This document shows, piece after piece, positions 3,588 through 8,425 of a stretch of 35,678 nucleotides of DNA. The stretch lies in the NCBI GenBank assembly GCA_945921235.1, contig CAMEKH010000007.1:1-35678 (forward strand). Direction: 5' to 3'. This DNA is from an uncultured Prevotellaceae bacterium. GTDB lineage: Bacteria; Bacteroidota; Bacteroidia; Bacteroidales; Muribaculaceae. Position numbers and translations under genes: made by a program. The notes beneath the pieces are model-generated. The model saw nothing but the letters and a program-made list of their open reading frames with translations. It had not been told where the DNA came from and ran no database searches. The first letter of the stretch is position 1. Every line of letters begins with the position of its first letter.

Positions 3588-5108
3588 TTATCCTTGATGT
3601 TGCTTGCGCAACAAGTCGTTAACAGTCTTCACCGGATTAAATGTAGTTATTGGCACTTCCACAAACACCGTGTTCCAGTCGCTCATCGAGCCATTCCACA
3701 ATCCCGGCAACTCAAGTGCCTTGATTGTAACTCCCGACTTCGATTTCTCTGAAATCAATCCGGTATCTTTATCCACATATTTCTTAAGGTCGAATTTATT
3801 GCCATCGACGTCCTTAATGTAGCATACCAAATCTACAGGATTGAAATGACTGCCGCTCTTAATAAGTTCCACCGACTCGGGTTTACTCTTGTCGAATTGC
3901 GCACTCTCAAGAATCTGTGGCGAAGTAGTGCCATCGGCATTATAGGCTATATACGGACCTCCACCGGGTTCCCCGTCGTTCTTTACCACTCCGCACACAC
4001 GAATAGGGCGATTCAACTTGCCAAGCACATAAATTGCGAGTTCCGAATCATCGAGATTCTTTGTCGACTCATTGCGAATATTCAGCGTGTCGTGCAAGAA
4101 TTTCACCATAATTCTCAAATCATCAATAGTGTACTTGCCGCTGCGAAGCATCTCCACATATTTCTTTATCTGCTTCTGCACTTTCACAAGATAGCCGCCT
4201 ATCACTTTCTTGTATTTCACAGTGTCGGCTCGCAAACCTGCCGGAACCACATTGTCGATATTCTTCACAAACACCACATCGGCATCAATGTCATTGAGAT
4301 TCTCTATCAGTGCCCCATGACCTGCCGGACGGAACAGCAACGTGCCGTTCTCGCGATAAGGCTCGTTGTCCATAGTCACTGCCACAGTGTCGGTCGATGA
4401 CTTTTGCTCCGATAACGACACCGAATATTTCACTCCCCACTTTGCCTCCATTGCCGGAGCTTTCTCCTCTATCAGTGCCTCAAATGCGCTGCGATGCTCG
4501 GGCGATACCGTGAAGTGTATATTCACGTTCTTACCTTTGTCGGTGGCATATTGCGCTCCCTCTTCAAGATGTTCCTCAAGCGGTGTGTGCACCTCATCTC
4601 CTACTTTATGGAATTGGAGCAAGCCCTTTGGCATGCCGCCATAGTTCATTCCATCGGCTGTAATAAGGCATTTCACCACTTCCACACACTTGCCATCGGC
4701 TATCAGGGCTTTCACCCCTTTTCCATAAGTTGCCACACATGCTGCATCGAGTGCCTTGAAAAAGGCAAAATTCTCAATCCCGGCAAAAAACGACTTCATA
4801 AAATCGGTGGTAGGCTCTTCTTTACCCGCTGTCACAAATTCAAACAGATTTTTGAACATACGGCTCGCCGCACCCGATGCCGGCACGAATTTTTCCACTT
4901 TGCCACCTCCGCTTAGGAATTCATTCCATGCTTCCTCACACGATGTTTCCTCAGCCGCATCAAGTTTCATAATGCCATCGCCTACAGTGGCTACCGACTT
5001 AATTTTCAAGTAAGGGAAACCGGTCTTAAAGCGATTCAACTGCTCCTCCAGTGCCTGTTCAGAGATGCCTTTGGCGGCAATCTCCTTTAAATCTTCTGGT
5101 TTCAACAT
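3588..5108 (-). CDS. DUF4301 family protein
   Basis: A 506-residue protein that I recognise as the DUF4301 family, common in Bacteroidetes and of unknown function. The segment PASGAASRMFKNL (near residue 80) resembles the glycine-rich nucleotide-binding loop of sugar nucleotidyltransferases. GEPGGGPYIAYNADG and ESAQFDKSKPE further on are other strongly patterned stretches. There is no signal peptide or membrane segment, so it is probably cytoplasmic. It is the first gene of a two-gene operon with the exported thioredoxin, behind a good TTG-N20-TAAATTTG promoter. A nucleotidyltransferase-like activity is inference from one loop only. Confidence 0.8.
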   Translation of the reverse strand: MLKPEDLKEIAAKGISEQALEEQLNRFKTGFPYLKIKSVATVGDGIMKLDAAEETSCEEAWNEFLSGGGKVEKFVPASGAASRMFKNLFEFVTAGKEEPTTDFMKSFFAGIENFAFFKALDAACVATYGKGVKALIADGKCVEVVKCLITADGMNYGGMPKGLLQFHKVGDEVHTPLEEHLEEGAQYATDKGKNVNIHFTVSPEHRSAFEALIEEKAPAMEAKWGVKYSVSLSEQKSSTDTVAVTMDNEPYRENGTLLFRPAGHGALIENLNDIDADVVFVKNIDNVVPAGLRADTVKYKKVIGGYLVKVQKQIKKYVEMLRSGKYTIDDLRIMVKFLHDTLNIRNESTKNLDDSELAIYVLGKLNRPIRVCGVVKNDGEPGGGPYIAYNADGTTSPQILESAQFDKSKPESVELIKSGSHFNPVDLVCYIKDVDGNKFDLKKYVDKDTGLISEKSKSGVTIKALELPGLWNGSMSDWNTVFVEVPITTFNPVKTVNDLLRKQHQG

Positions 5109-5379: not shown

Positions 5380-7584
5380 ATGATGAGTGAAGGATATTTC
5401 AACATTCAGGAAAAGAGTATTGTGACAAGTTTATGCAAAGAGCTGATTCGCAAAAATCTCGGTCAGCTTTCTTCTGCCGACATCAACAATGTACACGCAA
5501 TTATAAAAGAAGGCATCAAGCAAAATCACTACAACCGCGACAAATATGGCATAAACCCTACTATTCGCAACTTGAACACCGCTCTCCTCCTCACCGAGAA
5601 TATCGGTGCCGACCGTAACATGATTATCGCAATTATGCTTTATAATCTGTGCCGCTCGGAGTTTATTCCCGAACAAAAATTGCGCGAAATTTTCGGCGAC
5701 GACACTGCCAACCTCATCAACGGGCTTATGAAAGTGTCGAGCCTCTACAAAAAACAGGCGGCTGTGGAAAGCGACAATTTCCACAAGCTGTTGCTGACAT
5801 TTGCCGAGGATATTCGAGTTATCATCATTATGATTGTCGACCGATTGGCTATTATGCGTGCCATTAATCATCACCCTAATGAGAAATTCGTGCACGACAT
5901 CGCCAACGAGGCTAAATATCTCTACGCACCGCTTGCCCACAGGCTGGGGCTTTATAAAATCAAATCTGAACTTGAGGACCTCTCTTTCAAGTACACCAAC
6001 CGCGAAACTTTCACTCAGATTGCCCAAAAGCTGAATGAGACAAAAGTGGAACGCGACAAATATATCGCCGACTTCATTGCTCCGGTGAAAGCAGCTCTCG
6101 AAAAGGAAGGTTTGAAATTCGACATCAAGGGGCGCACTAAGTCTATCAGCTCTATTTGGAACAAAATGGTGAAGCAAAATGCCGATGTGAACGACATTTT
6201 CGACCTTTTTGCCATTAGAATCATTCTCGACACTCCTTTGGAGCGCGAAAAGGCTGAATGCTGGAATGCCTACTCAATAGTCACCGCAATGTACACTGCA
6301 AATACTTCGCGCCTTAAAGATTGGCTTACTATTCCTAAATCAAACGGTTACGAGTCGTTGCACATCACAGTGAATGGTCCAGGCAACAAATGGGTGGAGG
6401 TGCAAATTCGCACCCGACGCATGGACGAAATTGCCGAGCGCGGTCTTGCCGCTCACTGGAAATACAAAGGAATAAAAAGCGAAGGTGGTCTCGACGAGTG
6501 GATGAACAATGTGCGCGATATGCTTGAATCGGGCAACGGCCCTGCCGAACTCATGAAAAATGCCTCAATGCACATCTACGACAAGGAGGTGTTTGTATTC
6601 ACTCCTAAGGGCGACCTCTATAAGCTCCCCGCAGGTGCTACCCTGCTCGATTTTGCATTCCACATTCACTCGAAAGTGGGCAGCAGCTGCATTGGCGGAA
6701 AAGTCGACGGGAAAAACCAAAAAATCACTTATAAGCTGAAAAGTGGCGACACCATTGAAGTGCTCACTTCTTCCACTCAGACTCCGAAACTCGACTGGCT
6801 GAACATTGTGGTCACTTCTAAAGCCAAGAACAAAATCAAGCAATCGGTCAATGAGCTGAAAGCCAAGTCAGCCGACCTCGGGAAGGAGCTGATGCAACGC
6901 CGCTTTAAAAACAAAAAAATCGACGTCGATGAAGCCACGCTGATGAAAGTTATCAAGAAATCGGGTTATAAAAACGTGAACGACTTCTACTATGATATAT
7001 CGAAAGACATTCTCAACCCAAACAACGTCATCGATGCTTACATAGCCTTTGAAAACAAGGAGAGCGAGGCAAGCCACCCCGAAACTGCCGAGAATTTCAT
7101 TCTTCAGCACACCAAGGAGGAAACATCGCAAACCTCCGATACTTTGATTATCGGCGAAAATATCAAGGGTATAAACTACAAGCTATCGAAATGCTGTAAC
7201 CCGATTTTCGGCGATGAAATTGTGGGATTCATTGCAAGCGACGGGGCAATTAAGATTCACCGCGCCGATTGCGGCAATGCCGTACACCTCATCAAGCGTT
7301 ATCCCTATCGTCGCATCAATGCGGCTTGGTCGGGCAAAATGGGCTCGCAATATGCCGTCACTCTGCGCATTCTCGGACACGACGACATCGGCATAGTCAC
7401 AAACATTACCTCTGTGATTACTAAAGAGAAGGACACCTCGCTGCGAAACATCTCTATCGACTCGCACGACGGTCTTTTCCAAGGCTACCTCGTGATAGGT
7501 ATCGCCGACACTCAAGCCCTCGACAATCTTATCAGCAAAATTAAAAACATTAAAGGAGTAAAAGATGTTCAACGTAGCAATTAA
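5380..7584 (+). CDS. relA: RelA/SpoT homologue, synthetase-competent, hydrolase site lost
   Basis: A long RSH protein (734 residues) that makes the alarmone (p)ppGpp in the stringent response. The order is a HD-like domain (about 20-200), synthetase (about 245-365), TGS (about 402-465), a helical part, a Cys-rich segment (SKCCNPIFGDEIV, later RADCGN) and a C-terminal ACT domain. In the HD domain the metal-binding residues are gone: the usual HD is Tyr88-Asn89, the following ED is Arg92-Ser93, and the IIHP His is absent. The synthetase looks intact: GRTKSISSIW, RLKDWLTIPKSNGYESLH (RxKD at 311-314), VQIRTRRM and AAHWKYK. I therefore expect a RelA-like synthetase without hydrolase activity. The lipoprotein gene begins inside its last codons. 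It may start at 5380 or at the adjacent ATG 5383. Confidence 0.92.
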   Translation: MMSEGYFNIQEKSIVTSLCKELIRKNLGQLSSADINNVHAIIKEGIKQNHYNRDKYGINPTIRNLNTALLLTENIGADRNMIIAIMLYNLCRSEFIPEQKLREIFGDDTANLINGLMKVSSLYKKQAAVESDNFHKLLLTFAEDIRVIIIMIVDRLAIMRAINHHPNEKFVHDIANEAKYLYAPLAHRLGLYKIKSELEDLSFKYTNRETFTQIAQKLNETKVERDKYIADFIAPVKAALEKEGLKFDIKGRTKSISSIWNKMVKQNADVNDIFDLFAIRIILDTPLEREKAECWNAYSIVTAMYTANTSRLKDWLTIPKSNGYESLHITVNGPGNKWVEVQIRTRRMDEIAERGLAAHWKYKGIKSEGGLDEWMNNVRDMLESGNGPAELMKNASMHIYDKEVFVFTPKGDLYKLPAGATLLDFAFHIHSKVGSSCIGGKVDGKNQKITYKLKSGDTIEVLTSSTQTPKLDWLNIVVTSKAKNKIKQSVNELKAKSADLGKELMQRRFKNKKIDVDEATLMKVIKKSGYKNVNDFYYDISKDILNPNNVIDAYIAFENKESEASHPETAENFILQHTKEETSQTSDTLIIGENIKGINYKLSKCCNPIFGDEIVGFIASDGAIKIHRADCGNAVHLIKRYPYRRINAAWSGKMGSQYAVTLRILGHDDIGIVTNITSVITKEKDTSLRNISIDSHDGLFQGYLVIGIADTQALDNLISKIKNIKGVKDVQRSN

Positions 7585-8425
7585 GCACTTTTCGGTGGTT
7601 GCCTTAGCCACCCTCATCGCCTCAGGCTCTTGCGGAAACTCGGGGAAAGGCTCTCCCGAAGCTCTCGCCATGCTCGAAGAGGCTCGCAATCTCAGTGAAA
7701 CAGCTCTCTTCGATAGCTCGATAGTAATTATCGACTCTCTTTGCAAGTCATTTCCCGCCGAAACCGACATTGTGAAAGAGGCTATGCACCTCAAAGCATT
7801 GACTATGGAAAAATCATTCACCGCTCAGCTCAGTGAAGCCGAACAGGTGATTGCCGATAATGCTCCTATAGTGCAGGAAATAGGTGCGGATTTTACCACA
7901 GTGAAAACGCCCGATATGGTCGAAGGTTATAGGATTTTAAAATCAATATCAGGAAAGGAACTTATCAACCGAACCGATATTGAGCCTCGAATCGACGATG
8001 GTGGCAACCTCTACATCGTTTCACTCCTCAACGGACACGCCGTGGAGCATAACCGACTGAGGGCTTCGATTAAAGGCGGTGAGGCTGCCGAAACGGCTGC
8101 TATCCCCTACGACAAATACCAAAATTATCGATTTAGCGACAATGGCGTGACAAACGAAATGGTGACTTTCCACTACGATGAATGTGCCGACTTCTGCCGC
8201 TTCATTGCCGCAAATGCCGATGCCGACATCACACTTTCATTCGTGGGAAAATCCACATTCTCCATGCCGCTGTCACCGAGCTTAAAGCATGCCATTGCTA
8301 AGTCGTTCAAGTATTCTACCGCTATTAGAGCCGGACTTGACGCCGAAAAAGCAAAATTGCTTCTCTCGAAAAAAATCGAAATTGCAAAGCGCCAAATAGA
8401 GCGGACAAAGCCACAAGAAGATTAG
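7565..8425 (+). CDS. Hypothetical lipoprotein
   Basis: A 286-residue protein that I do not recognise. It begins with a lipoprotein signal: a basic start, a hydrophobic run and a lipobox-like IASGSC with Cys23. This suggests anchoring in the envelope. The region after it (SPEALAMLEEARNLSETALFDSSI) looks like a short tetratricopeptide-like helical stretch. The rest is mixed alpha/beta, with a Lys/Arg-rich C-terminal helix. It overlaps the end of the RSH gene by 20 bp in another frame, so the two are translationally linked. Its stop shares bases with the stop of the convergent M14 gene. There is no sequence evidence tying its function to ppGpp. Confidence 0.75.
   Translation: MFNVAIKHFSVVALATLIASGSCGNSGKGSPEALAMLEEARNLSETALFDSSIVIIDSLCKSFPAETDIVKEAMHLKALTMEKSFTAQLSEAEQVIADNAPIVQEIGADFTTVKTPDMVEGYRILKSISGKELINRTDIEPRIDDGGNLYIVSLLNGHAVEHNRLRASIKGGEAAETAAIPYDKYQNYRFSDNGVTNEMVTFHYDECADFCRFIAANADADITLSFVGKSTFSMPLSPSLKHAIAKSFKYSTAIRAGLDAEKAKLLLSKKIEIAKRQIERTKPQED

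Follow-up and report, generated by a model that had tools for sequence, protein, structure and literature searches.

A probable synthetase-only RelA/SpoT homologue with a degenerate hydrolase domain, and its putatively hydrolase-competent partner, in a Bacteroidales genome

The RSH gene of the window

The window, by which we mean the whole stretch of 35,678 nucleotides analyzed (contig CAMEKH010000007.1 of assembly GCA_945921235.1, from an uncultured Prevotellaceae bacterium), contains a gene for a long RelA/SpoT homologue (RSH), here called P0001. The open reading frame has no internal stop codon, and the Pfam matches on its product follow each other in the order HD_4, RelA_SpoT, TGS, RelA_AH_RIS and ACT_4 (Table 1), which is the complete HD-SYNTH-TGS-RIS-ACT architecture of long RSHs. 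In an alignment with other RSHs, the SYNTH domain was found to retain D275, R311, Y324, E340, Q342 and R344. Also retained are the conserved His of the TGS domain, presumably the residue that contacts the tRNA end, and the zinc-finger residues C605, C606 and H627, as well as C631 just past the Pfam match.

A DUF4301 gene lies just upstream in divergent orientation (window 3588-5108, reverse strand), and a tblastn match to it was observed near the RSH gene in 46 of 70 loci examined, on the upstream side in nearly all of them. The 3' end of the RSH gene is overlapped by 20 bases by a reading frame of 286 amino acids (7565-8425, forward strand) that has no Pfam match and an N-terminus resembling a lipoprotein signal. 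It has a match downstream of the RSH gene in 18 of the 70 loci, mostly in closer relatives. A scan of the window with Rfam models at gathering scores detected no RNA elements. Near the P0001 gene, 10 promoter-like sites (versus 7.1 in shuffles) and 10 terminator-like sites (versus 5.2) were counted, on which no conclusion was based.

Table 1. Features of the P0001 gene (window coordinates; residues in P0001 numbering) and loci with neighboring RSH genes in other genomes.
Feature	Position	Strand	Evidence
Long RelA/SpoT homologue P0001, 734 aa	5380..7584	+	ORF translation, Pfam
Putative pseudo-hydrolase HD_4 domain, residues 57-191	5548..5952	+	Pfam, AlphaFold2
R63 replacing IIHP metal-ligand His	5566..5568	+	alignment
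Y88 N89 replacing HD pair	5641..5646	+	alignment
R92 S93 replacing catalytic ED pair	5653..5658	+	alignment
D154, sole core HD residue kept of seven	5839..5841	+	alignment
I158 replacing essential Asn (of DRLHNM)	5851..5853	+	alignment
Synthetase RelA_SpoT domain, residues 251-364	6130..6471	+	Pfam
RLKD motif, residues 311-314	6310..6321	+	translation, alignment
TGS domain, residues 404-463, conserved His kept	6589..6768	+	Pfam, alignment
Helical/RIS (zinc-finger) region (RelA_AH_RIS), residues 475-627	6802..7260	+	Pfam
ACT domain (ACT_4), residues 656-732	7345..7575	+	Pfam
Tandem or nearby Hs and hS genes: L253, L254, L276, L285, L282, L257	G252, G247, G291 loci		

Hydrolase pocket of P0001 and the second RSH of the genome

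The HD columns were read from an alignment of P0001 with the second RSH of its own genome (L002) and 259 other RSHs. The column assignment agrees with the E. coli proteins, SpoT having HHDEDDN and RVKD in these positions and RelA having EFDD at the loop motif. The substitutions named in the original prediction, Tyr88-Asn89 at the HD pair, Arg92-Ser93 at the ED pair and the absent His of IIHP, were all seen in the alignment, and the Asn of DRLHNM is replaced as well. The wider statement that all HD signature residues are lost applies to six of the seven core residues scored; the seventh, the Asp of DRLHNM, is retained as D154.

The consequences of such changes are known from Acinetobacter SpoT, the residues of which were mapped onto P0001 by motif spacing. 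Excerpts of the study (PMC9974481) report that substitution of Y51, E82, D83 or N147 yields a hydrolase-inactive protein and that Mn binding is abolished in an H54A/H78A double mutant. Since all six positions are changed in P0001, loss of hydrolysis is strongly indicated. Outside the residues named in the original prediction, changes were observed at the equivalents of R45, Y51, K140 and T150, which are D54, P60, M151 and A161 in P0001, and the equivalent of R144 is kept as R155. We also searched for an intact site elsewhere in the protein. The pattern HDxxED occurs nowhere in P0001, and the dipeptides HD at 172-173 and ED at 143-144 and 199-200 are located in other places and out of register, so this possibility was rejected. 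Thus, with six core residues gone, (p)ppGpp hydrolysis by P0001 appears very unlikely, as originally proposed.

That proposal also implied a second enzyme able to remove ppGpp, and a candidate is present in the genome (2.46 Mb in 226 contigs, 93% complete), so that absence of a second RSH could be rejected. The partner, encoded on contig C36, is 748 amino acids long and 34% identical to P0001. Its HDVVED and DRLHNM motifs are intact, and because it keeps the synthetase residues scored it reads as an HS protein. In the following, HS denotes copies with both domains intact, hS copies with a dead HD and an intact SYNTH domain, and Hs copies with an intact HD and a damaged SYNTH domain. Searches of the genome with the Pfam HD_4 and RelA_SpoT models returned P0001 and the C36 partner only, up to E 10, and no small alarmone hydrolase or synthetase was detected as a further match to PF13328 or PF04607 up to the same limit; this count is to be read with caution, because the assembly may lack about 7% of the genome.

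History and constraint of the dead-HD clade

In trees built without the HD domain, the main group of dead-HD copies forms a single clade. All 28 of its 28 rows grouped together with an SH-aLRT support of 100 on SYNTH-ACT columns; the support was also 100 on TGS-ACT columns and 99 after addition of E. coli RelA and SpoT, all from quick trees without bootstrap. In the FastTree analysis, the main clade comprised 94 genomes with one copy each (support 1.0). We examined the residues in a clade of 121 rows, in 119 of which one or more core HD residues are missing, the other two having no data. The synthetase residues R241, D244, D264, Y308, E323, Q325 and R327 (RelSeq numbering) are present in 121 of 121 rows. 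The degenerate pocket of P0001 is therefore neither an artefact nor a chance feature of this one sequence. Of 40 HD positions with at least 95% conservation in other RSHs, 34 fall below that level in the clade.

The number of core HD residues kept varied widely among the 121 rows. With seven residues scored and gaps counted as mismatches, 23 rows keep none, 59 one, 14 two, 14 three, ten four and one six, the last being L153 from genome G242. The loss thus looks graded and to have proceeded lineage by lineage rather than as one clean ancestral event. Since L153 keeps six residues and ten rows keep four, some members of the clade could retain weak hydrolysis.

To what extent the domain is constrained could be estimated from one of nine pairs, L004-L005, for which dS was usable throughout; the other eight were saturated at synonymous sites in at least one domain. 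The dN/dS ratio was at most 0.055 in all five domains, with 0.045 for HD versus 0.016 for SYNTH, and the HD codons of this pair are by this measure under purifying selection. In a separate pair, L007 and L041, synonymous divergence drops from 2.2 in HD to 0.49 in SYNTH and to less than 0.1 over the remainder of the RSH gene, a step suggestive of a recombination breakpoint within it. The HD fold of P0001 is predicted with confidence by AlphaFold2, with a pLDDT of about 80-93 per ten residues except for residues 121-140. It aligns with structures of SpoT and of the N-terminal part of Rel; for one of the latter, 7oiw_B, Z was 32.7 and the rmsd 2.4 over 323 residues. We read the HD domain of P0001 as a kept pseudo-enzyme, by analogy with E. 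coli RelA, for the HD domain of which this has been argued (PMC8012599, in part). Of 98 hS rows, with one gene counted twice, 93 have the TGS His; for each of the zinc-finger ligands the number is 95.

Two other readings of these data were considered. First, the changed residues might support new chemistry in a conserved pocket, so that the HD domain would still hydrolyze (p)ppGpp or another nucleotide. The purifying selection on its codons, the retention of D154 and R155 in P0001 and the recurrence of R63 and Y88 in the clade (R in 52 and Y in 70 of 121 rows) would fit such a role. However, three of the four metal ligands and both catalytic acids are gone from P0001, which has no alternative HDxxED, and a single clade-specific position in the HD region is at least 90% conserved (L142 in the stop-to-stop numbering of L002), so that no new active site stands out. 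We therefore consider this reading very improbable. Second, P0001 could be a decaying pseudogene losing its function with the HD domain first, as the weaker constraint on HD than on SYNTH in the L004-L005 pair might suggest. One main-group match does contain an in-frame TAA (L324, G226:C73:17990-20146). Yet no internal stop was seen among the matches listed in the first searches of the order and the later re-search, and the low dN/dS in all five domains of the L004-L005 pair and the synthetase residues kept in 121 of 121 rows leave gene decay a very low probability. The reading of the HD domain as a kept pseudo-enzyme is preferred over both.

We also compared the loop motif that in P0001 reads RLKD. 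The own partner on C36 has RTRD at this position, and RxRD was found in 93 of 103 HD-intact RSHs of the order. As an outgroup we read the 29 Rels that match P0001 best in the 197 genomes from the rest of the phylum, which makes them a biased pick; all 29 had RxRD and an intact HD domain. RxKD was present in 14 of the 86 dead-HD copies sampled from the order, and among close relatives retrieved by a P0001 query it was found in 41 of 41. Lys is found at this place in 54 of 121 rows of the dead clade versus 2 of 139 other rows, a comparison in which Lys is over-counted in the dead clade because 41 of the 54 rows came from the P0001 query. Most simply, RxKD would be a derived state inside the dead-HD clade. 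The expectation that RxKD marks bifunctional RSHs was thus not supported, since nearly all of the HD-intact RSHs read have RxRD and RxKD occurs almost exclusively in the dead-HD clade, and its combination with a dead hydrolase is no paradox. To judge from these alignments, the usual case in Bacteroidales is a dead HD domain combined with a basic RxK/RD loop, and RxKD versus ExDD would be no marker of bifunctional versus synthetase-only enzymes in this order.

Related enzymes and a probable division of activities in Bacteroidales

A two-enzyme arrangement with a dead-HD copy is already in print. Atkinson et al. 2011 (PMC3153485) report RshB from Bacteroides, Porphyromonas and Parabacteroides; in their account it is a duplicate of Rel whose HD domain has diverged. 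Kim and Davey 2020 (PMC6994654) describe the hydrolase domains of Porphyromonas gingivalis Rel (PGN_0465) and of BT_0700 as being without many key residues. According to a 2023 mBio paper (PMC10746209), the Bacteroides thetaiotaomicron pair consists of a bifunctional enzyme and a monofunctional synthase and arose by duplication and hydrolase loss; BT3998 is credited with both activities or domains (PMC6994654, PMC10746209). In a 2026 EMBO J paper, BT0700 and BT3998 are called sequelogs of RelA and SpoT. Like P0001, BT0700 and PGN_0465 are second long RSHs described as synthase only and accompanied by an intact-HD partner, and by this likeness in published descriptions and features P0001 is a further member of the BT0700/RshB class. 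The intact H..HD..ED..D..N site of bifunctional Rel/SpoT enzymes is absent from it. Atkinson et al. write RshB[HS], whereas residues of the P0001 type argue for [hS]. The name RshB itself looks to have been swapped between papers, as it seems to denote the diverged-HD copy in one (PMC3153485) and the bifunctional paralogue in another (PMC6994654).

P0001 shares with E. coli RelA a pseudo-HD domain, intact SYNTH residues, the TGS, RIS and ACT parts and a hydrolase-competent paralogue. This synthetase-only design raises the question of whether P0001 is a RelA of the beta/gammaproteobacterial type, acquired perhaps by transfer. The best sequence match in the PDB, which holds few full-length RSHs, is indeed ribosome-bound RelA (5iqr), and the AU test did not reject a tree in which E. 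coli RelA was constrained to join the dead clade (p-AU 0.357, log-likelihood 9.6 lower). In the free tree, in which E. coli RelA and SpoT alone represent other phyla, these two proteins instead pair with each other (SH-aLRT 91), and the pair joins three Bacteroidota outgroup rows (99) apart from the dead clade. In addition, the ExDD motif of the RelA family is absent from P0001, which has RLKD in the columns of EFDD. The lengthened alpha6-alpha7 loop taken as a RelA hallmark was not found either, with 18 residues in P0001 and 19 in its partner, as compared to 25 in E. coli RelA and 19 in E. coli SpoT; the medians are 18 for hS copies (range 17-48), 19 for HS and 18 for Hs. We consider membership in the RelA family very improbable. 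From the free tree and the nesting of RshB within Bacteroidetes Rel with 98% bootstrap (PMC3153485, in part), loss of hydrolysis in the dead clade separately from E. coli RelA is favored.

Taken together, P0001 is very probably the synthetase-only member of a Bacteroidales two-enzyme stringent-response pair of the BT0700/RshB type. It would have originated by duplication of a bifunctional Rel and would make (p)ppGpp from ATP and GTP or GDP when uncharged tRNA sits on a starved ribosome, as E. coli RelA does. The pseudo-HD domain may have been retained for structural and regulatory roles, and the C36 partner would be the enzyme that removes the alarmone. Most of the ppGpp need not come from the dead-HD copy, since a P. 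gingivalis mutant in the bifunctional copy is reported to have lost more ppGpp than one in the synthetase-only copy (PMC6994654, in part).

To estimate how common the arrangement is, we sampled 119 genomes of the order, the own genome included, with P0001 and its partner as queries, and scored seven HD and four SYNTH residues in each match fetched. Genomes with copies not all listed were searched again; elsewhere the census covers the matches listed. The final tally was 232 RSH genes or fragments, divided into 104 hS, 98 HS, 20 Hs, one damaged in both domains and nine incomplete, with residue calls uncertain in detail for the most diverged copies (e.g. in G228, G247, G275 and G286). A single RSH was found in 22 of the 119 genomes, and each of the 22 is HS with an intact HD domain. 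Exactly one HS and one hS copy, as in the own genome, were present in 70 genomes, and a dead-HD copy in 96. An intact HD domain was identified in 117 genomes, in G249 on a fragment of 238 residues; the remaining two genomes, G208 and G277, have a partner gene truncated by the end of a contig. Outside the order, a single RSH match was obtained in 193 of the 197 genomes from the phylum, G109 and G160 had two, G196 had three and G133 none at E 1e-20. The RSH duplication looks confined to the order. The two or three matches in G109, G160 and G196, all of family f32 outside the order, had weaker scores.

Hs copies, that is long RSHs with an intact HD domain and a damaged synthetase, were present in 20 of the 119 genomes, all of which also have an hS copy. 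In 18 of the 20, the Hs copy carries the only intact HD domain found, with no fully intact HS copy found there. Eleven genomes have two dead-HD copies and one hydrolase-only copy. Ten of these eleven Hs copies were aligned, and R55, H64, H89, D90, E93, D94, D156 and N160 (L254 numbering) are invariant. In the synthetase of the same ten, NGY is changed to NGF in 10 of 10 and Asp to Asn in 9 of 10; across the eleven genomes the SYNTH changes are mostly D to N, Y to F and R to S or K. The main-group pattern is strong. The catalytic Asp is kept in five of the 20 calls (G248, G282, G288, G290 and G303). The G248 copy has three other SYNTH changes, and the remaining four are weaker calls that rest on the R249- or E-equivalent, with Y or Q at the VQIR position as well in G282 and G303.

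The tree position of the Hs copies, which have long branches, is uncertain. Support for a ten-member Hs clade was 99 with SYNTH columns and 57 without, and larger versions of the clade obtained FastTree supports of 0.78, 0.44 and 0.68. In G252 (C77:57475-62295) and G247 (C44:17555-21478), the Hs gene lies upstream of the second hS gene on the same strand, 0.3-0.5 kb apart, and in G291 (C149:8994-15603) the two genes are divergent and 2.3 kb apart. Short hydrolase-only RSHs of about 635 amino acids were identified in G221 (L337), G312 (L338) and G298 (L290) and form one group in the TGS-ACT FastTree (support 1.0); those of G221 and G312 accompany a complete pair of HS and hS copies.

These patterns suggest that the Bacteroidales probably split the activities of long RSHs more than once, in some lineages completely, and that the partner lost its synthetase residues in several lineages. 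Acinetobacter baumannii SpoT[Hs], as described in excerpts of PMC9974481, is a model for the 20 Hs copies, whereas the partner of P0001 keeps the synthetase residues scored. The Bacteroidales copies would have arisen separately from it. Hydrolase-only long RSHs of Bacteroidales did not appear to be reported in the open-licence PMC literature searched, which is a weak indication of novelty.

The gene in the window would confirm and broaden an arrangement already described, in which a RelA-like synthetase is accompanied by a hydrolase-competent partner, and the comparison points to conflicting use of the name RshB in print. If the proposed splits are true, ppGpp synthesis and hydrolysis would be fully separated in a second phylum besides that of the Moraxellaceae, where such a separation is known, in places with dedicated tandem genes. 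The Hs and hS copies of the census offer many natural cases in which to test the control that an inactive domain exerts on the one still active.
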